Source of the DNA: Thermoplasmata archaeon
Lineage (GTDB): Archaea; Thermoplasmatota; Thermoplasmata; Thermoplasmatales; Thermoplasmataceae
Length of the DNA stretch: 64,000 nucleotides
Assembly (NCBI GenBank): GCA_021797355.1
Contig: JAJZZX010000008.1
Span: forward strand, 1-64,000
Direction of reading: 5' to 3'
The notes beneath the pieces were generated by a model. That model worked only from the letters and a program-made list of their open reading frames with translations. It was not told the origin of the DNA and searched no databases. Position numbers and translations under genes: made by a program. Below are positions 129 through 13,926 of the stretch, one piece after another (the stretch's first letter is position 1; each line of letters opens with the position of its first letter).

Positions 129-419
129 TTGAACACTGAAAAATTTAGAGAACTCTTCAGAAAGAAGCAGACAGCATGGATATTCTTATTTCTCTTCGTA
201 ACATCTTTGGTTTTATTTGCTCTTTCTACGTTCGCAAACGTTTTCAACCTTACCATCACCAGACCTTCTACTGGACTAAATACCTCGGGTGGCACAATTC
301 CATTTACACATATATACACATTTTTTCCTGACCCGTTTGGTTGGACATTTCTCCTGTTGTCTATAGCTTTTCTGTCTGTCGCGGTGATGTTATTTCATAT
401 TTTGAAGAATTCTCAGTGA
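129..419 (+). CDS. Small two-helix membrane protein, unknown function
   Basis: 96 residues, unrecognised. Two hydrophobic helices are visible, at about residues 18-38 and 72-92, joined by a Ser/Thr/Pro-rich loop that probably faces outward. The first 15 residues are basic (FRELFRKKQ), so the N terminus is likely cytosolic. The start is TTG with a GAGGTG ribosome site 8-14 bases upstream. It lies on the side of the att-like tRNA fragment where the integrated element would extend, so it may be an element gene (inference). Confidence 0.5.
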   Translation: MNTEKFRELFRKKQTAWIFLFLFVTSLVLFALSTFANVFNLTITRPSTGLNTSGGTIPFTHIYTFFPDPFGWTFLLLSIAFLSVAVMLFHILKNSQ

Positions 420-467: not shown

Positions 468-1298
468 TTATGAGATTTCACCTAAGTATTCACACACTTT
501 TTCATACCAGTAGTCCGCCTGCTTCACCCTGGCAAGGTAATGCATGGATCCAACTGATTCCGGAGCTCTACCCTCAATGAAATCTGACACTGACTCCGGT
601 ACATTGTTCATTATGAGGAAGTTATAGAACCATTTCCTGAGGTATTTCGGGGCTATCCCATACTGTCTAAGCTTCCTGGAAACTGTATCCTTGTTGATAT
701 AGAACCGATGAAGTTTTTTGGCCAGATACGTAGGCATGTAAACATACTGGGACCTCTTGTTTCCTCTGTTGTAGTTCAGAGGGTATTTTGAGATCTCCTT
801 ATCGGTTATGAGTATGGACTGGTCAAATTCCTTGAGCATTTTAACGAGTTCTGTTATCCTGATACCCGAGAATGCCAGTATTTGAAAGAGAATGCGATCC
901 TTTTCCTGCTTGATTTTCTGATATGCATTCCTGACATCCTGGTCATTGGGAATGTACCCGTCAACAGTTGTTTTTCTTGAAGGGAGTGCCTTCCTGAAAT
1001 AGAGTGCAGTCTCTTCATTGATTATTTCATTCTCCAGGAGAAAGTGGATATATGCCCTGATTACTGTAAGAACCATTGATGAACTGCTGCTTGATACAGT
1101 TTCTCTGAGTTCGGATAATTGTTGAATTTCTTTATTTTCAATTGGTTTTAGATACCTCATGATGTCTGCTTTATAACCCAGACTGAATCCTTTCTGATCC
1201 ATCCATTTCTTTAACTCTCTGTTGTATTTTGATGCCGGAGGCAAGAAATAAAGGCTTCGCAAGCAGGAGGCCTCGGGTTCAAATCCCGACCGGTCCAT
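468..1298 (-). CDS. SSV-type archaeal tyrosine recombinase (integrase), probably the Int(C) part
   Basis: 276 residues of the archaeal phage/plasmid integrase family, which catalyses site-specific recombination at tRNA genes. The catalytic core is in the C-terminal half: an arginine in SGIRITEL (about residue 148), a second arginine box in YLRKWFYNFL, and a nucleophile candidate tyrosine in MHYLAR. The ATG lies on the complement of the tRNA CCA-like end, so the first 14 or so residues (MDRSGFEPEASC) are the reverse translation of a tRNA T-arm and acceptor, a hallmark of SSV-like integrases split on integration. The family is often longer than 300 residues, so this is plausibly the Int(C) half next to att, with the element extending left out of the window. 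Whether it is functional is unknown. Confidence 0.85.
   Translation of the reverse strand: MDRSGFEPEASCLRSLYFLPPASKYNRELKKWMDQKGFSLGYKADIMRYLKPIENKEIQQLSELRETVSSSSSSMVLTVIRAYIHFLLENEIINEETALYFRKALPSRKTTVDGYIPNDQDVRNAYQKIKQEKDRILFQILAFSGIRITELVKMLKEFDQSILITDKEISKYPLNYNRGNKRSQYVYMPTYLAKKLHRFYINKDTVSRKLRQYGIAPKYLRKWFYNFLIMNNVPESVSDFIEGRAPESVGSMHYLARVKQADYWYEKVCEYLGEIS
1256..1297 (+). other. Attachment-site core: 3' part of tRNA-Ala(CGC)
   Basis: These bases fold as the 3' part of a tRNA. They give an anticodon loop TTCGCAA (anticodon CGC at 1258-1260), an anticodon 3' strand GCAGG, a five-base variable loop, a T arm (TCGGG, TTCAAAT, CCCGA), an acceptor strand CCGGTCC and discriminator A. The U at position 70 would make the G3:U70 pair that identifies tRNA-Ala. 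Bases before 1256 do not provide the 5' half: there is no CCTGC strand to pair with GCAGG and no D arm. It is therefore not an expressed tRNA but an att copy whose intact partner should lie outside the window. Confidence 0.75.
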
Positions 1299-3486: not shown

Positions 3487-4443
3487 TTAAGCAACAGCAG
3501 TGATGAGAGCATACAGATCCCTGGAATCCTTCCACACACTAGTTTCGCTGAACCCCGCCTCTCTGAGCATTGCTTTCAGTTCACTGATTGAAAATTTATA
3601 TGAATTCTCTGTGTGTATGGATTCACCTTCCCTAAATCTTATAGTTATACCTCCAACATTGTATGACTGATCCCTGGTACTTATGAGATGCATTTCAACC
3701 CTCCCCTCATTGCTATTGTAAAAGGCGTAATGCCTGAAAGCATCAGGTGGAATATTTGTACCGAACTCCAGGTTGATTCTTGCAATGAGGTTTAGATTGA
3801 ACATGGCGGTAATGCCTTTGCTGTCATTATATGCCCTCTCTATTACTTCAGGATTCTTTTTCAGATCAGCGCCTATTGTAAATGTTTCTCCGTCGCTCAA
3901 GATTTTCCGGCAACCTGCTATAAACGACCGCTGATCGGCAGGTTCCATGTTTCCTATTGTAGAACCCAGGAAGACTATCGCCTTCCTTCCTGCCATCTTG
4001 ATTGATGACATGACATCTATTGCAGTGTAGTCAGCGCAAACAGCCTTTGCAGGTATGTTTGGGCATTCCATGCCGAATCTTTTTAGGGCATCTTTGAGTG
4101 CATCCATGGATATGTCAACAAGAATGACTTCTCTTGGATTGGTAAGACACTTTGCAAGAAGCACGCTCTTCTTTCCATTTCCGCTGCCAAACTCGGTCAA
4201 GGAAACATCTTTACCTATGACCTCTCCGATTTCACTGGCCTTATCTTTGAGTATCTCCAATTCAGCCCTTGTGGGATAATACTCATCAAGCTTTGTGATC
4301 TCTTCGAAAAGTTCCGAGCCAGTTCTGTCATAAAAGAATTTAGGGCTGATCCATTTGTTTTCAGAGAGAAGACCATTTATTACATCTTTCTTAAAGTCAG
4401 ATAATCGCGGTTTAAGATCAATTATTTCGTAAGAATTCTGCAA
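3487..4443 (-). CDS. egtD: EgtD-type L-histidine N-alpha-trimethyltransferase
   Basis: 318 residues, the usual EgtD size. It uses S-adenosylmethionine to trimethylate histidine to hercynine, the first step of ergothioneine synthesis. Family features are visible: the N-terminal SPKFFYDRTGSELFEEIT segment, DEYYPTRAELEIL, the SAM motif LTEFGSGNGKKS, and FLGSTIGNMEP. It sits five bases downstream of egtB on the same strand, so the two form an operon. EgtD homologues are known mainly from bacteria and fungi, so this pair in an archaeon suggests acquisition by transfer (inference). Confidence 0.92.
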   Translation of the reverse strand: MQNSYEIIDLKPRLSDFKKDVINGLLSENKWISPKFFYDRTGSELFEEITKLDEYYPTRAELEILKDKASEIGEVIGKDVSLTEFGSGNGKKSVLLAKCLTNPREVILVDISMDALKDALKRFGMECPNIPAKAVCADYTAIDVMSSIKMAGRKAIVFLGSTIGNMEPADQRSFIAGCRKILSDGETFTIGADLKKNPEVIERAYNDSKGITAMFNLNLIARINLEFGTNIPPDAFRHYAFYNSNEGRVEMHLISTRDQSYNVGGITIRFREGESIHTENSYKFSISELKAMLREAGFSETSVWKDSRDLYALITAVA

Positions 4444-4448
4444 TTACA

Positions 4449-5735
4449 TCAACCCTTAATCAGTCTTATTCCGGAGAACTGCCATCTATCATTGTGGTGG
4501 TAGAAATTCCTATAAGTCAATCTAGAGTGTCCTTCCGGTGTGACACAGCTTGCTCCACGTAGGACCATTTGGTTTGACATAAATTTCCCGTTGTATTCTC
4601 CTAGTGATCCTGAAAGAGGTTTGAATCCTGGATATGGCGAATAGGCACTGGATGTCCACTCCCAAACTCCGCCTGGTCCTGATATGGCAGACTCAGAATC
4701 GCTCTGAACGGATGGGTGAAATTCGTTGCTTTCAAGAAAATTTCCCTGATGTTCCAATTTGCTGTTCTTCATAGAATGCTCCCACTGTGATTCAGTTGGA
4801 AGCCTGCATTTTGCCCATCTAGCATAGGCATCTGCTTCGTAGTACGAAACATGCACCACCGGCTCGCCAGGATTAACCTCCCGTCTCCCAGAGAGGGTAA
4901 AATAATAGAAATCTTTCCCTTCTTTTTCCCAGTATAGCGGTGCTTCCCATCCCTTACGAACTCTTTCTAACCACCCCTCTGATAGCCATAGCTCCGGCCT
5001 TTCATAACCACCGTCAAGAATGAATTCTATATATTCACCATTTGTAACCGCTCTGTTCGCTATCAGGAATGCAGGCACTATTTCATTGTGTCTAGGCTTC
5101 TCATTATCGAAGCAGAATCCTGGGCCATCATATCCAATGCTTTCGACAGACTCATCGAACTTTATCCACTCCAGTTCCACCACTTCTTTGCTGGAGGAAT
5201 GTGCGCTGCTGGAATAAGAAGGATAGTAAGGGCTCACAGAATAATTCATCTTCACATCCATAAGGAGAAGCTCCTGATGCTGCTGTTCATGGTTTATTCC
5301 AAGTATAACTCTCGATTTCACTTCATCAAGAATTTCACCATTCACTGACTGAAGTAGTTCAATAACGGATGAATTCACAGATTCCCTGTATTCAAGCACG
5401 TCCTCAAGAGATGGGCGGGATATTGTTGATCTCATTGACTTCGGAAGGAATCTTCCCACTGTCTCGTAGTATGAGTTGAAGAGGTATCTATAGTTATCAT
5501 CGAATCTTCTGTATCCCGTCACATACGGTTCTAGAATGAATGTCTCAAAGAACCATGTGGTGTGTCCAAGATGCCACTTGGGAGGGCTGGTATCAGATGT
5601 GGCTTGGACCATATAATCGTCTCTATTCAGGGGCTTGCACAACTCAAGCGTTTTTTCCCTGGTGTTCCTAAATAAAGCGATCAAATATGACACTTCATCA
5701 TTGGTCATCTTCTGGCTATCTACGATTCCCATCAT
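4449..5735 (-). CDS. egtB: EgtB-type sulfoxide synthase (ergothioneine synthesis)
   Basis: 428 residues with the EgtB layout. An N-terminal DinB-like domain carries the iron ligands (HLGHTTWFFE and NHEQQHQELL, giving the three-histidine site). A C-terminal FGE-sulfatase domain follows (GGVWEWTSSAY, then QMVLRGASC and DRWQFSGIRL at the end). The enzyme is a non-heme iron oxygenase joining hercynine to a thiol (cysteine or gamma-glutamylcysteine), so it implies oxygen use. Only B and D are present here; EgtA, EgtC and EgtE are not seen in the window. The first two codons are both ATG, and either may be used. Confidence 0.92.
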   Translation of the reverse strand: MMGIVDSQKMTNDEVSYLIALFRNTREKTLELCKPLNRDDYMVQATSDTSPPKWHLGHTTWFFETFILEPYVTGYRRFDDNYRYLFNSYYETVGRFLPKSMRSTISRPSLEDVLEYRESVNSSVIELLQSVNGEILDEVKSRVILGINHEQQHQELLLMDVKMNYSVSPYYPSYSSSAHSSSKEVVELEWIKFDESVESIGYDGPGFCFDNEKPRHNEIVPAFLIANRAVTNGEYIEFILDGGYERPELWLSEGWLERVRKGWEAPLYWEKEGKDFYYFTLSGRREVNPGEPVVHVSYYEADAYARWAKCRLPTESQWEHSMKNSKLEHQGNFLESNEFHPSVQSDSESAISGPGGVWEWTSSAYSPYPGFKPLSGSLGEYNGKFMSNQMVLRGASCVTPEGHSRLTYRNFYHHNDRWQFSGIRLIKG

Positions 5736-6277: not shown

Positions 6278-6793
6278 TTATTCTGTGGCATGAGGTGATA
6301 TCAGGCCCACCGGGCTGCCATTAACAACAAGTGAACCGCGCACTGTGCATGCCTTTGAAAGAGTGTTTGTCACATAGCAGTCAGAGGTTGCATTAAAGGC
6401 AAGTTTCCAGATCGTATCAACGGGATCGGGTGATGTTATAACAACCTCGTAATCTATCTCCGTGAATTCCCTTGGCCTGCTAACTTTGAATTTCCCCTCG
6501 ACACGGATCGATAAGTCAGTTATGGTTATTCCTTCTGAAGCCGCATGTTCCGCGTAGTGAACCATCTGGCACATTCCAAGGCTTGATATGAAGTAAGACA
6601 GAGGACTGGGCCCATTTTCATCAGATATCCAGGAAAAATCCTGATTCTCCGGTCTGGTTTCCGATATGAGATTGTCTTTTTTTGTTACCGTAACCGCCAC
6701 TCTAGATGATACATCTCCTTTTTCATCAAACTTGGCATACCTGGCCATTCTGTCCCTCATCCTTTCTATGAATTCAGTATCAAACTTCACCAT
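6278..6793 (-). CDS. OsmC/Ohr family thiol peroxidase-like protein
   Basis: 171 residues. OsmC fold signatures: GPSPLSYFISSLGMCQMVHYA with the first redox cysteine and NATSDCYVTNTLSKAC with the second. Such proteins reduce organic hydroperoxides with a dithiol donor. GGAG lies six bases before the ATG. The 45-base region upstream is shared with the divergent AhpD-like gene and contains the GTCAACAGTTGAC palindrome, so both may answer to the same regulator. Whether the donor is a lipoyl protein, as for some OsmC/Ohr enzymes, cannot be told. Confidence 0.85.
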   Translation of the reverse strand: MVKFDTEFIERMRDRMARYAKFDEKGDVSSRVAVTVTKKDNLISETRPENQDFSWISDENGPSPLSYFISSLGMCQMVHYAEHAASEGITITDLSIRVEGKFKVSRPREFTEIDYEVVITSPDPVDTIWKLAFNATSDCYVTNTLSKACTVRGSLVVNGSPVGLISPHATE

Positions 6794-6830
6794 AACTCCT
6801 GCAACAATGGGGTTAATTTAAAATGTTACT

Positions 6831-6843
6831 GTCAACAGTTGAC
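6831..6843. promoter_or_regulatory. Palindromic operator candidate GTCAACAGTTGAC
   Basis: A perfect 6-1-6 inverted repeat between the divergent OsmC and AhpD-like genes, just downstream of an AT-rich TATA-like stretch (6811-6826). The core CAACNGTTG recurs at 8941-8949 and 9048-9056, all next to starts of genes flanking the CARF-like regulator. Confidence 0.6.
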
Positions 6844-6889
6844 GGTCCATATTATAATACAAAGAGAGAATGATCCTTTTGATCTCTGT

Positions 6890-7456
6890 ATGAACGTAGC
6901 CTCTGAAGCACTAGAAAATTTTAGGGAACTTGAAAAATCCTTTGAAAATTCAGGAACCCTTACAGAAAAGGTAAGAATTCTAATTGGGATAGCTACGGCC
7001 AATCGTTTCAGGAACGGAAAATTACTAGCAGCTTTTCTAGAAAGCGCGAGAAATTCAGGCATTCCGGAATGTGAAATAGATGAGGCCATCATTATCTCTG
7101 CGCTTGAAACAAGCGGTACTCAGTTATTTTGGCTCAAGGATGTTTTTGATGAGATGCTGTCTGGAAATGATAAGGAGCCTTATTACCTGTCAGGAGGAAA
7201 TGACATAGGAAACCTTTGGGTTAGATTTCAGCAGTCAGTGTATGAAGAGCCAGCCCTTAGCAGGAAAGACAAGGAATTGATCACGGTTACCCAGGCCAGT
7301 TTCGGAAGGTGCCCTCATTGCACCAAAACGCATATTGCAGCCGCAAAAAAGTACGGATGCTCCGAAAGAGAAATAACTGAATCTTTACTGTTTTCTGCAA
7401 CTGTTGCTGCAAGATGTGATCTGCAGTGGTTTAAAGACGCAGAAAAGAGCCAGTGA
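6890..7456 (+). CDS. AhpD-like / carboxymuconolactone decarboxylase-family protein, two repeats
   Basis: About 188 residues from the chosen ATG. The open frame extends to a TTG at 6839, but that codon lies inside the palindrome and upstream of the expected transcription start. Two CMD-type helical repeats are visible. The first has no cysteines; the second holds RCPHCTKTHIAAAKKYG, the CxxC-x3-H redox centre of AhpD-like alkylhydroperoxidases. Probable role: thiol-dependent peroxide or radical detoxification. It is followed four bases later by the HAD gene. Confidence 0.78.
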   Translation: MNVASEALENFRELEKSFENSGTLTEKVRILIGIATANRFRNGKLLAAFLESARNSGIPECEIDEAIIISALETSGTQLFWLKDVFDEMLSGNDKEPYYLSGGNDIGNLWVRFQQSVYEEPALSRKDKELITVTQASFGRCPHCTKTHIAAAKKYGCSEREITESLLFSATVAARCDLQWFKDAEKSQ

Positions 7457-7460
7457 TCAG

Positions 7461-8132
7461 ATGGCAGACAGAATACTCGTATTCGATCTGATGGGGACAC
7501 TTCTCGATGTTGGAAAACTGGAGATTCCCCCGGGAATTTGTCTGCCAGATGAAACTTTGTTTAAGGACGTTTGGAGAAGAAAGCAGCTGGAATACAGCTG
7601 GCTTTCTACAATAATGGAATCTAGGTCCTCATTCTGGGAGATGACTTTAAAGGCCCTAGATTATGTGGCAGATGCTCTGAGCCTTACCATATCTCCTACA
7701 GACAGGAAAAGGCTCATGCAGAGCTGGCTCAATGTCCCTGTGTTCCCTGAAGTGCCGGTTGGGTTAAAGAGAATAAAGATCAGAAGGGCCATTCTGACGA
7801 ATGCGGATATTGCGATGGCGAGGGAAATGGTGAATAATGCCTCTCTTCATACTTTCTTTGACAAGCTTTTCTCCGCAGAGGAAGTAGGGAAATTCAAGCC
7901 TGCAAAGGAGGTTTACAGCATTGTTGCAGAACATTATGGTATAAGCATGGAGCAAACAATATTAGTATCTTCCAATGCGTGGGACGTACAGGGAGCAATA
8001 ATGGCCGGTATGAAAGCAGTTTACGTAAACCGATCCGGGATCCCTCAGGAAAAAATATCAGGTACAATCGCTCAGGAGTTATCGTCAATAAAAGAACTTG
8101 CAGATAACATTGGCACGTGGGCTACTGGCTAA
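7461..8132 (+). CDS. HAD-superfamily hydrolase, type II haloacid dehalogenase-like
   Basis: 223 residues from ATG (MADRILVFDLMGTLLDV). HAD motifs: the nucleophile Asp in FDLMGTL, ILTNAD (motif II), the Lys in KFKPAKEVY (motif III) and VSSNAWDVQGA (motif IV). The second aspartate of phosphatase-type HADs (two residues after the nucleophile) is Met here, and SSNAWD is typical of L-2-haloacid dehalogenases, so dehalogenase-like chemistry is more likely than phosphatase. The substrate is unknown. It shares a transcription unit with the AhpD-like gene. Confidence 0.8.
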   Translation: MADRILVFDLMGTLLDVGKLEIPPGICLPDETLFKDVWRRKQLEYSWLSTIMESRSSFWEMTLKALDYVADALSLTISPTDRKRLMQSWLNVPVFPEVPVGLKRIKIRRAILTNADIAMAREMVNNASLHTFFDKLFSAEEVGKFKPAKEVYSIVAEHYGISMEQTILVSSNAWDVQGAIMAGMKAVYVNRSGIPQEKISGTIAQELSSIKELADNIGTWATG

Positions 8133-8180
8133 TACCCCTTTTTCAGCAAATTCGAGGTGAAGTAGAGCTGGTATTCACTC

Positions 8181-8921
8181 TCAAACGGTGACGATTCTCC
8201 CTAGAGCACTAATCTCTATTACGGTCCTCCCTCTTGCCCCTCTTTCTACATTAACAAGACCGAGATCAATAAGCCCTTCAGAGTCATCGGTGCCATTGAG
8301 GTGGCGGCTGATGAGTGCTTTATCAATGCTACACAGCTCAGACAACTGTTCCAAGCTTTCGGCCTTCCCCCCGTTTCTTATTAGAGATTTGAGTATATTC
8401 AACTTTGTTTCGGACAGAATTCTCTGATATCCAAGCCTAAGTATTGGTAGCATATGAACTCCCTTCGGGTCCACCCAAAAAGCTCTTATGCCGAAAATAA
8501 AGGCTGATGAAATTGACGTGCATGATATGAGCTTGCCACCCTCAGTTACGTTCATGAGAAAATCATCGTATTCATTGCAGTTGTCTCTGTATACTAATTT
8601 AACTGCTTCAAGCACCTCATTCAGATCGCCTGATTTCACATTGACCACCTCAACCTGAATCATGAGGGCATTTCTTATCTGATTGATGAATTCCTTGAAG
8701 GGTATATCCAAGAGATTCCTGCTTCTGTCATTAACCTCTTCGTGTATTATCACCAGCTTGTCAATGGGAAGAAGCCTTATCCCGTCTCTTATTCCTTTAT
8801 AGGATTGGCCGTCAGAATATATGGCGATCTGCAGTGTTTTTTTCTGCTGAAGCGGTGTTTCTCCCATTGATCTACCAATGCATTCTGCATTATTAGACAT
8901 GTTTGTCATATCATTTTCCAT
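8181..8921 (-). CDS. CARF-like ligand-binding + winged-helix transcription regulator (HFX_2341/Csa3-like)
   Basis: 246 residues from the chosen ATG (MENDMTN). A longer frame begins at 8954, but its first codons are the palindrome itself, so the downstream start is preferred. The N-terminal 150 residues look like a Rossmann/CARF domain: strand IAIYSDG, then LVIIHEEVND, then NVTEGGKLIS in the place of the CARF ligand loop. The C-terminal 80 residues are a winged helix (LNILKSLIRNGGKAES, LSELCSIDKALISRHLNG). CARF regulators normally sense cyclic oligoadenylate in CRISPR loci, but no CRISPR locus is visible here. It is flanked by redox genes carrying the same palindrome, so it is the likely local regulator. 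Confidence 0.72.
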   Translation of the reverse strand: MENDMTNMSNNAECIGRSMGETPLQQKKTLQIAIYSDGQSYKGIRDGIRLLPIDKLVIIHEEVNDRSRNLLDIPFKEFINQIRNALMIQVEVVNVKSGDLNEVLEAVKLVYRDNCNEYDDFLMNVTEGGKLISCTSISSAFIFGIRAFWVDPKGVHMLPILRLGYQRILSETKLNILKSLIRNGGKAESLEQLSELCSIDKALISRHLNGTDDSEGLIDLGLVNVERGARGRTVIEISALGRIVTV

Positions 8922-8938
8922 ACAACAAACTTTGCCCA

Positions 8939-8950
8939 TCAACTGTTGAC
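8939..8950. promoter_or_regulatory. Operator candidate TCAACTGTTGAC at the regulator gene
   Basis: Second copy of the CAACNGTTG palindrome, 18 bases upstream of the preferred start of the CARF-like regulator. This position suits autorepression. Confidence 0.55.
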
Positions 8951-9046
8951 GCATGGAAAGACCGATCAGGAGTCTTTAATGTCGACGTAAAGTTCACAGC
9001 AGCCTAGATCTGAGAAAAATTTACAGTCTGAATAACGGAGTAAACT

Positions 9047-9058
9047 ACAACCGTTGAC
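9047..9058. promoter_or_regulatory. Operator candidate ACAACCGTTGAC upstream of the C2H2 membrane gene
   Basis: Third copy of the palindrome core, placed just upstream of the TATA box of the gene at 9098. The core CAACCGTTG is a perfect inverted repeat around a central C. Confidence 0.5.
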
Positions 9059-9068
9059 CGATTAAGCC

Positions 9069-9079
9069 TTTATATATAG
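9069..9079 (+). promoter_or_regulatory. TATA box for a leaderless transcript
   Basis: TTTATATATAG-type box centred about 24 bases before the ATG at 9098, so transcription should begin at or next to the start codon. It sits immediately after the operator candidate. Confidence 0.6.
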
Positions 9080-9097: not shown

Positions 9098-9685
9098 ATG
9101 AATATGACAGAAAATAAGTGTGATGAATGTGGTCAAGTCTTCGCTTCAAAAGAGCTCCTGATGGAACATGCAAAAATGCATATGGGTAAAGCGAAAATAG
9201 GTTTTGGCGCAAGGAAAACGATAATATCTTCCATCATAGGAGGAATAATCGGCGGAATTCTGATGCTACTGGTATTGATGGCTGGTGCAGCAGGAATGGG
9301 TCTCCCTTCAACCACATTTGCAATGGTCATGGGAATGGGTCTAGGGGCATCAATGGGCTCTGCCGTAATGGTTGGCGTACTCGGGCATTTCACAGTGAGC
9401 ATAGTAGCAGGCGCAATTTTTGGTGCGATAGTGTCATACGTAAAGCCATTGAAACTTACGAGTGTATCAAAATCCCTCGGTCTTGGAGTAGCATTTGCAA
9501 TAGTTGTGTACCTTGTATTTTTCCTGCCAATGGCAATGACAGTATTCGCATCGGTGATGATGAAATTAATGGGTTCAAAGGCTGCTATGATGCTCCCTGA
9601 TGTCCTAATTATAGGATTCATAGGGCATCTTCTGTATGGTCTTACACTTGGTGCAACAGCACTCGGAATCAGCAGAAAACTCTAA
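9098..9685 (+). CDS. C2H2 zinc finger fused to a glycine-rich multi-helix membrane domain
   Basis: 195 residues. Residues 8-28 form one classical C2H2 finger (CDECGQVF, then HAKMH). After a basic linker come four or five hydrophobic segments rich in Gly, Ala and Met (IIGGIIGGILMLLVLMAG, then GLGASMGSAVMVGVLGHF, and later helices), like glycine-zipper membrane proteins. No enzyme motif is seen. The finger may bind zinc, protein or nucleic acid at the inner face of the membrane. The gene has its own TATA box and operator candidate and is leaderless. Confidence 0.7.
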   Translation: MNMTENKCDECGQVFASKELLMEHAKMHMGKAKIGFGARKTIISSIIGGIIGGILMLLVLMAGAAGMGLPSTTFAMVMGMGLGASMGSAVMVGVLGHFTVSIVAGAIFGAIVSYVKPLKLTSVSKSLGLGVAFAIVVYLVFFLPMAMTVFASVMMKLMGSKAAMMLPDVLIIGFIGHLLYGLTLGATALGISRKL

Positions 9686-9727: not shown

Positions 9728-11086
9728 ATGACCATGACATCAAAGTTTGATTTAATAATAATTGGTTCAGGCTCGGCTGCAACCACTGTTGCATTTAAGG
9801 CTATTAAACACAATAAGAGGGTCGCTGTGATTGATCAGAAACCCATAGGAGGAACATGCGCACTGAGGGGTTGCGATCCAAAAAAAGTTTTGGTTGGGGT
9901 TACCGATGCTCTGGAATACGCCAGGAAACTCCAGAGCTATGGGATCTCTAAGTTAAGCGGCCAGATTGAATGGGATGAACTAATGGAGTTTAAGCGCTCG
10001 TTCACCGAACCAATGTCTTTGAGGATAGAAGAAAGTCTTCGTAAAAACAACATCGAAGTTGTACATGGAAGGGCGAAATTCATAGGGCCGGAAACACTGG
10101 AAGTTGAGGGCAAGACCTTTGAGGCGAGCAGATTCCTCATAGCTACTGGTGTAAAAGCAGCAACACTGAATTTTCCCGGTTCGGATCTACTGATAGATAA
10201 CGAAGGATTCCTCAGCATGCCTGCCCTGCCAAAGAAGCTTGTTTTTGTGGGAGGTGGATACATTTCGGTTGAATTTGCCAGTATTGCAAAAAAGGCTGGT
10301 TCTGAAGTAACCATAATTCAGCATTCTGGCAGAATTTTATCGAACTTCGACAGGGAAATGGCAGATATTCTTACTAGTCTTTTACGGGAATCTGGTATTG
10401 AAATATCTGTCAATACCTCTGTAAATGAGGTAAGAAAAGTCGACGGGAGGTTTGAAATAAAACTGACGAGAGAAGGCAAGGAAGAGGTTATCTATGCAGA
10501 TGCAGTTGTTCACGGTGCAGGAAGGGAATTTGATTCTGAGATGGGGCTCGAGGCCGCAAATATAAAATGGTCAAGGAGGGGTGTGGAAGTCAATGATTTC
10601 CTGCAGAGTGTTTCAAACCCTCGAATATACGCAGCAGGAGACTCAGCGGATACTCTTGGCCCCAAACTTACACCGGTTGCGGTCATGGAAGGAAACATAG
10701 CTGCGGAAAATCTTCTTAATGGGAATTCTTTGAAAGCAGACTACAATGGAATCCCAACCACAGTCTTCTCCACCCCTCCCCTTGCAATGGTCGGAATCAC
10801 TGAAGAACAGGCTCTTAAAAAAGGGCTCAGGATCAATGTGAAAAAAGGAGATATGACTTCATGGTATAATTCACGGAGGAGGATGATTCCAAAATCCTTC
10901 TATAAGGTCATCCTTGATAGTGACTCGAAAAAAGTCCTGGGGGCACATATACTTGGAGAGAACTCTGAAGAAGTGATCAACATTTTTGCTATGGCAATAA
11001 GGCTCGAGATAAATGTAGATACATTGCTATCCATGCCGTTTACCTATCCATCAGACACAAACGACTTAAAGTATATGATCGGATAA
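9728..11086 (+). CDS. FAD/NAD(P) disulfide oxidoreductase (glutathione/mercuric-reductase-like)
   Basis: 452 residues. N-terminal FAD motif IIGSGSAATTVAFKA, redox pair GGTCALRGCDPKK, central NAD(P) motif FVGGGYISVEFAS, second FAD motif IYAAGDSADT, and a C-terminal dimerisation domain ending YPSDTNDLKYM. The usual C-terminal His-Glu pair of glutathione and lipoamide reductases is replaced by Tyr-Pro, so the proton relay differs. It also lacks the Cys-Cys tail of MerA. Its position after the redox island suggests it reduces a low-molecular-weight thiol or a protein disulfide. An internal ATG two codons later (9734) is an alternative start. Confidence 0.85.
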   Translation: MTMTSKFDLIIIGSGSAATTVAFKAIKHNKRVAVIDQKPIGGTCALRGCDPKKVLVGVTDALEYARKLQSYGISKLSGQIEWDELMEFKRSFTEPMSLRIEESLRKNNIEVVHGRAKFIGPETLEVEGKTFEASRFLIATGVKAATLNFPGSDLLIDNEGFLSMPALPKKLVFVGGGYISVEFASIAKKAGSEVTIIQHSGRILSNFDREMADILTSLLRESGIEISVNTSVNEVRKVDGRFEIKLTREGKEEVIYADAVVHGAGREFDSEMGLEAANIKWSRRGVEVNDFLQSVSNPRIYAAGDSADTLGPKLTPVAVMEGNIAAENLLNGNSLKADYNGIPTTVFSTPPLAMVGITEEQALKKGLRINVKKGDMTSWYNSRRRMIPKSFYKVILDSDSKKVLGAHILGENSEEVINIFAMAIRLEINVDTLLSMPFTYPSDTNDLKYMIG

Positions 11087-11195: not shown

Positions 11196-11583
11196 CTATC
11201 TGAACAACTTGATGCCATTATCCATAAAAACTTCAAAATGTTCATCCAGAATATAAAGTGAGCAGCCGTTGTTAATTGCTATGAAAGAAAAAATAGAAAC
11301 CTTTCTTGGAACCGCTCTTCCTTTCCGCGCTCAGCTACGAAACAACTGATAGTTCGCTATCTTTTTTAGTGAAGTCCAGAGTTGGTATTTGCAGAACCGA
11401 ACTGGAATTTTTGGAGTATTTTTCCATACCGTATAGAACCTCATGCATGTCCACTGAACTTGCGCAGTATTCTTCCCTGCTTTCGATGATTTTAAGCATT
11501 AGTTCATCGCCTTTGTCTGATTCCCTATCCAGAATTTCTATGATGACTTCAGTGTCAAGAAGAATCAATTCCCTTTCTCCCAT
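11196..11583 (-). pseudogene. vapC pseudogene (frameshifted PIN toxin)
   Basis: The first 80 residues (GERELILLDTEVIIEIL and on) match the vapC product at 2157-2549 closely. A one-base deletion at about 11338 then ends the frame. The downstream frame still reads AERK, then AINNGCSLYILDEHF and the family's C-terminal LFR before a stop at 11196, with the segment that should hold the RMDAIIAS aspartate scrambled. The toxin is therefore inactive. Confidence 0.8.
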
Positions 11584-11767
11584 CTTTTCTTTTTTAAGTC
11601 CGCAAGTAGATCATTCTTATCTTCAAACTCAATGCTTCCCCTTAATGACCTGATTAGATCTTTCTTACTCTGTGATTTAACAAGCCTGTCTAGAAGCTCA
11701 CTAAAACTTTCATTCTCTTTCTTGAACCTTTTCAATTCATCGTACACTGACTTTTTGATAGTTATAT
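11565..11767 (-). pseudogene. vapB copy with its start removed
   Basis: Residues matching vapB (ITIKKSVYDELKRFKKENES and the charged tail) are intact, but the first codons before ITIK are replaced by sequence belonging to a transposase remnant on the other strand. The frame stays open to 11831 without a convincing start or ribosome site. An antitoxin could still be made from a fortuitous start, but the ancestral promoter is gone. Confidence 0.65.
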
Positions 11768-11773
11768 AGGCTG

Positions 11774-11941
11774 TCTGAATCTGATCGGATCCAGTACAAG
11801 TTCTCTTTCCTTGAGAATGCAGAGAACACAATCTCCAGGTTCATTGAATTCTATAAAAATGAGAGACTGCATTCAGCAATAGATTATAAAGCACCAAATG
11901 AGGCGTATGAAGAATGGAAAGAAAGTATAATAGAAAAGTGA
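11774..11941 (+). pseudogene. IS3/IS481-like transposase C-terminal fragment
   Basis: An open frame of 55 codons without a start reads NTISRFIEFYKNERLHSAI, then DYKAPNEAYEEW. This is the typical C-terminal end of rve-type (DDE) integrase-core transposases (FIEFYNNERLHSALGYKTP in many IS3 members). The rest of the element is missing. The fragment abuts the truncated vapB, so the insertion probably destroyed that operon. Confidence 0.65.
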
Positions 11942-12308: not shown

Positions 12309-12942
12309 ATGAATACTCACTTGCTTGATTTGTTTAACGACACAAGAATGGTCACAAGAATTAAGATCAGGTTGCCTCATTTATTTCAACTTGCTGAATT
12401 AGAGGGTTCAAGAGCGGGTAAGATTGGGATGGAGGTCGGATCTGTCAGAGAAAAGGTGATTACTGCGCTCCTGATTTACAAATATGGCCAAGAAAACGTT
12501 GAAACAGACATACCAATCACGGAACCGGAAGTTGACGTTAAACTGTTCGATGAGCCTATTTCAATTAAGACCATATCTGGTAAAAAACCTTCCGGTGTCA
12601 AGCTGATTTGGACAGTTGATCCAGAAAAGGCAAGGTATTTCCAGGATAACTGGCATCCTACTTATGATTTGATTTTTGTTCATATCAATTGGTCTGCTAA
12701 AGGAGACCTATATTATATTCCTCACGAGGTTCAGGATACAGTGTTTAGAAGGATGGGCAGAGAAAGCTACATCAAGTTACCCAAACAAGGAACTAACCCC
12801 CGGGGGGGTTGAGATTTCCGTTGACGCTCTTAAAGCAGTTATCAGCAGTGACAGAACTGAGTCTATAGAAATAAATTGGATCAGGGAACCAATAGACTAT
12901 AATCCTTTTAAGAGATGGGTTGAATTATGGGGTGAGAATTGA
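12309..12942 (+). pseudogene. ThaI-family type II restriction endonuclease, frameshifted
   Basis: The first frame gives 167 residues (MNTHLLDLFNDTRMVTRIK to LPKQGTNPRGG). The second frame resumes at GVEISVDALKAVI and ends WVELWGEN, overlapping the methylase. The break is at a run of seven Gs (about 12801-12808); with six, the protein would be about 210 residues. The family resembles ThaI of Thermoplasma acidophilum (recognition CGCG); EVDVKLFDEPISIKTISGK looks like the acidic-x-lysine nuclease core. The family assignment comes from recollection of overall sequence features, without alignment. The frameshift may be real, phase-variable or a sequencing error. Confidence 0.65.
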
Positions 12943-13926
12943 CGGTTAATAACAACCGTAGAAGCGGTACGCAGACGAGTTCTTTTGGCAGCCCTAGTAG
13001 GGCAAATCACGATTCGTCAAAATTTTACAGTAGTAGGCTTTACGAGGGTTTTTCAAGAGGAAAGGATAATGTAGACTTTCATGAAAATCCGTTGCCTGCT
13101 GGTTCAATGGATAAAATATTTTGCAAGTCGGCAGAGAGAATGACGGAGTTACCGGATAATAGCGTTCATTTAATGGTCACTTCACCCCCGTATAACGTAG
13201 GAAAACTCTACGACAAGGATATGTCTCTCGATGAATACAGAACCTTTCTATTGTCAGTTTGGAAAGAGGTCTACAGAGTGCTTGTACCAGGGGGCAGAAT
13301 GTGTGTAAATATTGCAAATTTGGGGCCGTAAACCATACATTCCATTGCACACATTCCTAATAATGGATTTGCTTGATTTGGGTTTTCTAATGAGAGGAGA
13401 GGTTATTTGGGACAAGGGAGCTACAGCTAGTTCTTCGATTGCTTGGGGAACTTATCTATCGGCTAAGAATCCTGTTCTTAGGGACTCTCACGAGTATATA
13501 CTCATCTTTTCTAAAGATACCTTCACCCGTGGCACCAAAGATAAAATGAAATCTACACTTTCAAAAGATGAGTTTGCAGAGTTTACCAAGAGTGTGTGGA
13601 CATTTAATGCAGAATCTGCAACCAAGGTAGGCCACCCTGCACCTTTTCCTGTGGACCTACCAGCCAGGTGCATAAAACTATACACATTTGAAGAGGAGAT
13701 CGTACTCGATCCATTCATGGGTAGCGGAACTACTGCGGTGGCAGCACTTGAATTAAATCGCCACTACATAGGTTACGAGATTGACAAAGAATATGTCGGA
13801 ATAGCAGAGAAACGTATCAGGGAGGTTATGGGTAAAAAGAAGCAACAACTATTACCAGAAGCCGGCCCAATACTGAGTAAACAAGAACAGGTTCTGGATG
13901 GTGCTCCGACTCAAATTCACCCCTAA
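12939..13926 (+). pseudogene. DNA methyltransferase of the ThaI-like system, frameshifted
   Basis: Beta-class arrangement: the catalytic motif TSPPYNVGK comes first, and the SAM motif DPFMGSGTTAVAALELNRHY comes near the end, as in N4-cytosine or N6-adenine methylases (TSPPY favours N4-cytosine). The frame stops at 13329-13331 just after a GGGG run (NLGP-stop). With one G fewer it continues NLGRKPYIPLH and on to 13926, about 327 residues. The TTG start overlaps the stop of the nuclease gene. Like its partner it needs removal of a single G to be whole. Confidence 0.8.

Follow-up and report, generated by a model that had tools for sequence, protein, structure and literature searches.

A short palindrome as the predicted operator of a CARF–winged-helix regulator in a thiol-gene island of a Thermoplasmata archaeon

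Introduction

Regulators that join a CARF domain to a helix-turn-helix (HTH) and have non-CRISPR targets are already known from HFX_2341 (crr) of Haloferax mediterranei and MM_0565 of Methanosarcina mazei. HFX_2341 (PF19810/DUF6293; PMC11434293) resembles the protein studied here in having an N-terminal CARF-type domain (by the Pfam cut-off) and a C-terminal winged helix, in acting outside CRISPR loci too, and in residing in a host with no Cas10. It influences numerous metabolic genes and has no known operator (PMC11434293), whereas our regulator is accompanied by a defined palindrome, a compact set of thiol genes and a clade-specific cysteine. MM_0565 (PMC7465815) is likewise a CARF–HTH factor with wider targets and binds its own promoter, but it prefers AT-rich DNA, with no distinct motif found, and belongs to a CRISPR/casposon setting.

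Csa3a and Csa3b of the Sulfolobales share the CARF and winged-helix domains and are the top fold match of our regulator. They differ in controlling cas and repair genes, in lying in cas loci and in binding cA4 through an aromatic motif 1 that our regulator lacks, and the Csa3 operator TTCNTAACTAAANANGGNNNGAAA is unrelated to the palindrome described below. OxsR of Haloferax volcanii (PMC9426492) is an analogue in the way it works: it regulates the response to thiol stress in an archaeon, has a conserved cysteine and uses a motif located upstream of BRE/TATA. However, it is a single-domain TrmB-family protein and not a CARF protein; our regulator, built of CARF and winged helix, does not have the single DNA-binding domain of the TrmB type. 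The role of the OxsR cysteine was tested, and that of the cysteine described here is predicted.

Here we analyse a 64,000-nucleotide stretch from a Thermoplasmata archaeon (Thermoplasmataceae; assembly GCA_021797355.1, contig JAJZZX010000008.1, positions 1 to 64,000, forward strand; hereafter the window), in which a sequence-only reading had linked a repeated palindrome to a CARF-like regulator. For the related regulators in the cited papers the operator is ill-defined or none is known; here regulator, short operator, position relative to TATA and target set are predicted together. What sets the present system apart from the known ones is a predicted, defined operator, a compact regulon of thiol genes and a cysteine next to the ligand loop.

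Results

Three palindromes stand at gene starts in a thiol-gene island

Direct reading of the sequence placed all three palindromes at gene starts, as claimed earlier. Palindrome 1, GTCAACAGTTGAC (6831–6843), is a perfect 13-base palindrome around a single centre base; it is common to the divergent promoters of an OsmC gene (minus strand) and an AhpD-like gene (plus strand) and lies at −49 of OsmC. Palindrome 2, TCAACTGTTGA (8939–8949), lies at −49 of the regulator gene, whose start codon is at 8900. In-frame upstream starts exist at 8921 and 8954, and palindrome 2 is non-coding only if the shorter start at 8900, which homologues back, is the true one. Palindrome 3, ACAACCGTTGA (9047–9057), has one mismatch to the 11-mer TCAACNGTTGA and lies at −57 of a C2H2-membrane gene. 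Sites are thus present at all the places proposed, namely the promoter of the regulator itself and upstream of the OsmC, AhpD-like and C2H2-membrane genes.

The OsmC-like thiol peroxidase family protein (6278–6793, minus strand; PF02566, E 1.5e-16) is divergent from the AhpD-like/carboxymuconolactone decarboxylase family protein (6890–7456, plus strand; PF02627, E 1.1e-18). A haloacid-dehalogenase (HAD) type II hydrolase (7461–8132, plus strand; TIGR01428, 166 bits, above cut-off) follows the latter after a 4-base gap, and the two are probably co-transcribed. Beyond the regulator gene (8181–8900, minus strand) lies a gene for a membrane protein with an N-terminal C2H2 zinc finger (9104–9685, plus strand; alternative start 9098), with orthologues in G003, G023 and G012; its zf-C2H2 and DUF6789 matches are both below cut-off. 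It probably shares one operon with an FAD disulphide oxidoreductase of MerA/glutathione reductase-like type (9728–11086, plus strand; GGTCALRGC motif; PF07992, E 3.9e-60), which scores 324 bits against the MerA model, under the cut-off of 454. By these profile matches the putative targets are of thiol- and peroxide-type families, so the thiol-stress character ascribed to them stood.

The ergothioneine genes egtD and egtB, both above NCBIfam cut-offs, adjoin the island in the window (3487–5735) and in G003 (L037, 4362–6602), without the palindrome; egtB/egtD have been reported in Oxyplasma meridianum (PMC11349054). A search for the motif in front of the egtB/egtD and DUF427 genes found none.

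What is non-random about the palindromes is their location, not their number. The window contains eight copies of the 9-base core CAACNGTTG, where shuffled sequence gives 0.67. Genome-wide (1.74 Mb) there are 40 copies against 34 of the reversed control, that is, no excess, and the 11-mer TCAACNGTTGA occurs exactly twice, about the expectation for 10 fixed bases in 1.74 Mb; these two exact copies are 2.1 kb apart, both in the island. Genome-wide motif excess was accordingly dropped as evidence, the counts being near expectation. In the genome-wide scan at promoters suggested by the sequence-only reading, each core was classified: the sole three cores at promoters are palindromes 1–3, and the other 37 of the 40 lie inside coding sequence. 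Window copies at 962 and 7398, which that reading had not listed, also fall inside genes.

Site position relative to BRE/TATA favours activation

Palindrome 1 lies between two TATA-like elements of the divergent genes, TTTTAAATTAA for OsmC (6813–6823, minus strand) and TATTATAATA for the AhpD-like gene (6850–6859, plus strand), each just downstream of it as read from the sequence. Similarly, palindrome 3 precedes the TATA box of the C2H2-membrane gene, TTTATATATA (9069–9078, plus strand), by 11 bases. Downstream of the regulator's site lies an A/T element that is conserved but weak. All sites, the regulator's own included, are therefore just upstream of BRE/TATA. This position activates in Csa3a, TrmBL1 and OxsR (PMC4333418, PMC4706686, PMC9426492), and TrmBL1 and OxsR activate from upstream sites and repress from downstream ones (PMC4706686, PMC9426492). 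Because the sites lie upstream of BRE/TATA as in these archaeal activators, our analysis favours activation with positive autoregulation over the autorepression proposed earlier, which was not borne out.

We consider it probable that the island is a local regulon for thiol or metal stress in which a repurposed CARF factor controls the target genes and its own gene through TCAACNGTTGA. The explanation builds on observed site conservation, co-inheritance, CARF fold, site position relative to TATA-like elements and cysteine conservation; binding by the regulator, activation, ligand and physiological role are its predicted elements. In this scheme TCAACNGTTGA would be the operator of the CARF–winged-helix protein encoded at 8181–8900, and a regulator dimer would bind one site immediately upstream of each BRE/TATA. 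The target units would be OsmC, the divergent AhpD–HAD operon, the C2H2-membrane–flavoprotein operon and the regulator's own gene. The bound dimer would most likely help TFB/TBP bind, so that local thiol-detoxification genes and regulator would be switched on together. The signal is probably not cyclic oligoadenylate; our leading guess is a thiol oxidant, an electrophile or a soft metal acting at or near Cys127. The weak TATA elements at the regulator promoter are a point against the explanation.

The same protein and sites might instead serve repression, the dimer keeping TFB off the BRE at every promoter, that of the regulator among them, until a signal releases the dimer. Since the site directly adjoins the BRE, occlusion is possible; in Haloferax mediterranei, HFX_2341 acts mainly as a repressor (PMC11434293); and the longer start at 8921 would put the site closer to the regulator's start codon. 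However, placement upstream of TATA is uniform at all promoters, including that of the regulator with its conserved start, and upstream sites activate in the archaeal cases cited above (PMC4333418, PMC4706686, PMC9426492). We therefore regard general repression as unlikely, though it is the strongest of the alternatives.

Sites are conserved between unrelated flanks and inherited with the regulator

The OsmC site was found at −48/−49 in five genomes (−49 in the window genome; −48 in G003, G023, G012 and G018), the C2H2-membrane gene site at −57 in four (the window genome, G003, G023 and G012) and the regulator site at −48/−49 in six (the window genome and five others, two of which, counting G009, have decayed regulator genes). 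In site-anchored comparisons, mean pairwise identity was 0.86–0.95 within the site, 0.26–0.28 in the 45 bases upstream, which is the background level, and 0.45–0.59 downstream, where the core promoter lies. This conservation is the test of location that is independent of counts: other species, although their flanks are unrelated, have the site in front of the corresponding genes and equally far from them. In G012, with two mismatches, and in G003, with a central change, the site before the regulator gene is weaker, which counts against our explanation. A TnpB-like gene sits between the regulator and C2H2 genes in G023, and each retains its own site; in L042, OsmC is decayed and the site precedes the start of a small C2H2 protein by about 59 bases.

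Elsewhere among 61 genomes the longer motif CAACNGTTGACNG is almost always intragenic. Extra matches in G003, G012, G020 and other relatives, checked as regulon candidates, lay inside genes; the exceptions were one unclear intergenic match in G020 and one upstream of a hemerythrin-like gene in G017, a genome without the regulator.

Regulator orthologues are present in G003, G023 and G012 (66–73% identity) and in the Thermoplasmata MAG L042 (76%); those of G009 and G206 are decayed. Of the 61 genomes searched, G000, G003, G012 and G023 contain the regulator together with the C2H2-membrane gene and OsmC; G010 has a distant relative of the C2H2 gene without the finger. No relative of the regulator was found on the plasmids searched.

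Another host transcription factor might bind the palindrome, the CARF protein being only one of its targets. The awkward case for our explanation is G018, in which the OsmC site is kept at −48 and no regulator was found at E 1e-6 in an assembly that is 96% complete; this would reflect either recent regulator loss, an assembly gap or another binder. Binding of the palindrome by the CARF protein is, moreover, a prediction. Against another factor, inheritance of the sites goes with that of the regulator gene in every genome but G018, and a perfect 11-mer persists just upstream even of the decayed regulator genes in G009 and G206. The genome has no promoter-type sites elsewhere, which suits a dedicated local regulator, and we judge a different binder to be quite improbable.

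The regulator gene of the genus to which G206 and G009 belong has an interruption that separates the CARF domain from the winged helix (L118, 1793–2516; L040, 190–960). The halves in G206 are overlapping ORFs, so a split gene or a programmed frameshift is possible there instead of plain decay. L124 has a perfect 201-base direct repeat (6599–6799 and 8490–8690), which spans the part of the membrane gene that encodes the C2H2 finger end and is found again upstream of OsmC.

The regulator is a CARF–winged-helix protein of the HFX_2341 kind

The 239-residue regulator matched PF19810 (HFX_2341_N) at 30.1 bits, a marginal score against the cut-off of 30; all five orthologues match, with a best E of 7e-8. 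The Csa3_N and Card1 CARF models matched more weakly, and Csa3 models were below cut-off (TIGR01884, 12 bits vs 60.2; Csa3_N, 17 vs 27). A profile from a 45-member family alignment matched CARF chains of Can2-like, Csm6, ring nuclease and Card1 proteins; a PDB profile search with five close orthologues only had found nothing. An AlphaFold model from the 45 sequences reached a pLDDT of 85.7 and replaced an earlier one from five close homologues (48.6). Its top Foldseek matches were Csa3 (2wte/6wxq/6w11), with Sis0811, SSO1393, Card1 and Csm6 also among the leading hits. The TM-scores are moderate, 0.4–0.5 over the whole chain, as expected for two domains oriented differently. In the winged helix, HTH_5/MarR-like matches are below cut-off in members, and the model shows confident helices at 164–202 and wing strands at 216–230. 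Profile and fold together uphold the CARF-like nature claimed for the N-terminal domain. CARF–winged-helix proteins of the HFX_2341 kind are widespread among archaea, with matches in 115 of 390 Thermoplasmatota genomes.

The ligand-loop motif after strand 4 (N-x-[ST]-x-G-x-[KR]) reads NVTEGGK in the window protein, and its Asn117 is invariant in 45/45 family members. The cA4-binding motif 1 of Csa3, Phi-G-F-[N/D]-X-zeta-F (PMC8844856), is absent: the regulator has D-G-Q-S-Y-K-G, with both stacking Phe missing. A search for the Cas10 palm domain in the intact-island genomes G000, G003, G012 and G023 found none, and the sole Cas1 match of the regulator's genome is on another contig, C1, which agrees with the claim that the regulator lies away from any CRISPR locus. 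By profile, model and fold the regulator is a genuine CARF–winged-helix protein of the HFX_2341 kind. Since motif 1 is lacking, no Cas10 was found and the Cas1 match is on another contig, we conclude that it is not Csa3 and that cyclic oligoadenylate is unlikely to be its signal. The earlier Csa3 label was thus too specific, and the suggestion of a different ligand is plausible, as no Cas10 was found in the host and motif 1 is absent; motif 2 is partly kept (N-V-T-E-G-G-K).

If the protein were instead an immune regulator like Csa3, triggered by cyclic oligoadenylate and controlling stress genes by coincidence, this would accord with that partly kept motif and with Csa3 being the closest solved fold. 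We consider it very improbable, given Csa3 models far under cut-off, a motif 1 without aromatic residues, a position outside any cas locus and the four intact-island genomes in which no Cas10 was found. That the palindromes are chance or codon-usage artefacts, as genome-wide counts near expectation and 37 of 40 intragenic nine-mers could suggest, has a negligible probability and is excluded for the island sites, which keep their distance to three orthologous genes across several species whose flanks are saturated.

A clade-specific cysteine beside the ligand loop

Cys127 is present in 14/14 members of a supported clade (99/94) and in 1/31 other sequences. Adjacent to the CARF ligand loop, it follows the phosphate-binding Lys/Arg position by four residues; it is one helical turn behind the loop and so perhaps near the dimer axis. 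G363, from another family, has the complete gene set at 30–49% identity (TM-C2H2 protein, flavoprotein, OsmC, regulator), plus MerA; a search there for the palindrome found none despite the same gene set, a further point against our explanation. In G250, GshA adjoins the regulator and there is a weak MerT-like protein; an AhpD-like protein, thioredoxin reductase and thioredoxin are encoded in G061 but 4–7 kb from the regulator, a distance that counts against the association; and L042 has MerA and a MerP/CopZ-like protein near it. The neighbourhoods of the clade members G199, G131 and G091 contained no clear thiol/metal genes. The link between the Cys127 clade and such genes, drawn from readable distant members only, is thus a lead, not a statistic. 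A literature search for CARF with mercury resistance returned none.

It is possible, though doubtful, that the CARF domain has been turned from a receptor of nucleotide second messengers into a thiol/soft-metal sensor, in which oxidised or metal-bound Cys127 would drive the thiol-detoxification regulon via TCAACNGTTGA. If so, a CRISPR-type signal receptor would have been reused for redox or metal sensing.

CARF regulators of the Cys127 clade also occur in tandem or divergent pairs (L103 and L100, in G091 and G105).

Further features were seen in the window. A tyrosine-recombinase-like ORF (468–1298, minus strand) and a membrane ORF (129–419, plus strand) recur almost identically close to the end of contig C6 in this genome (L085, 5977–7050), which suggests that the copied pair (129–1298) is a putative mobile element. 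At 12309–13926, a type II endonuclease-like ORF adjoins a DNA methyltransferase split into overlapping ORFs (12939–13331 and 13312–13926), for which a frameshift within 12939–13926 is probable. Two similar VapBC-like toxin–antitoxin gene pairs lie at 2157–2743 and 11335–11831.
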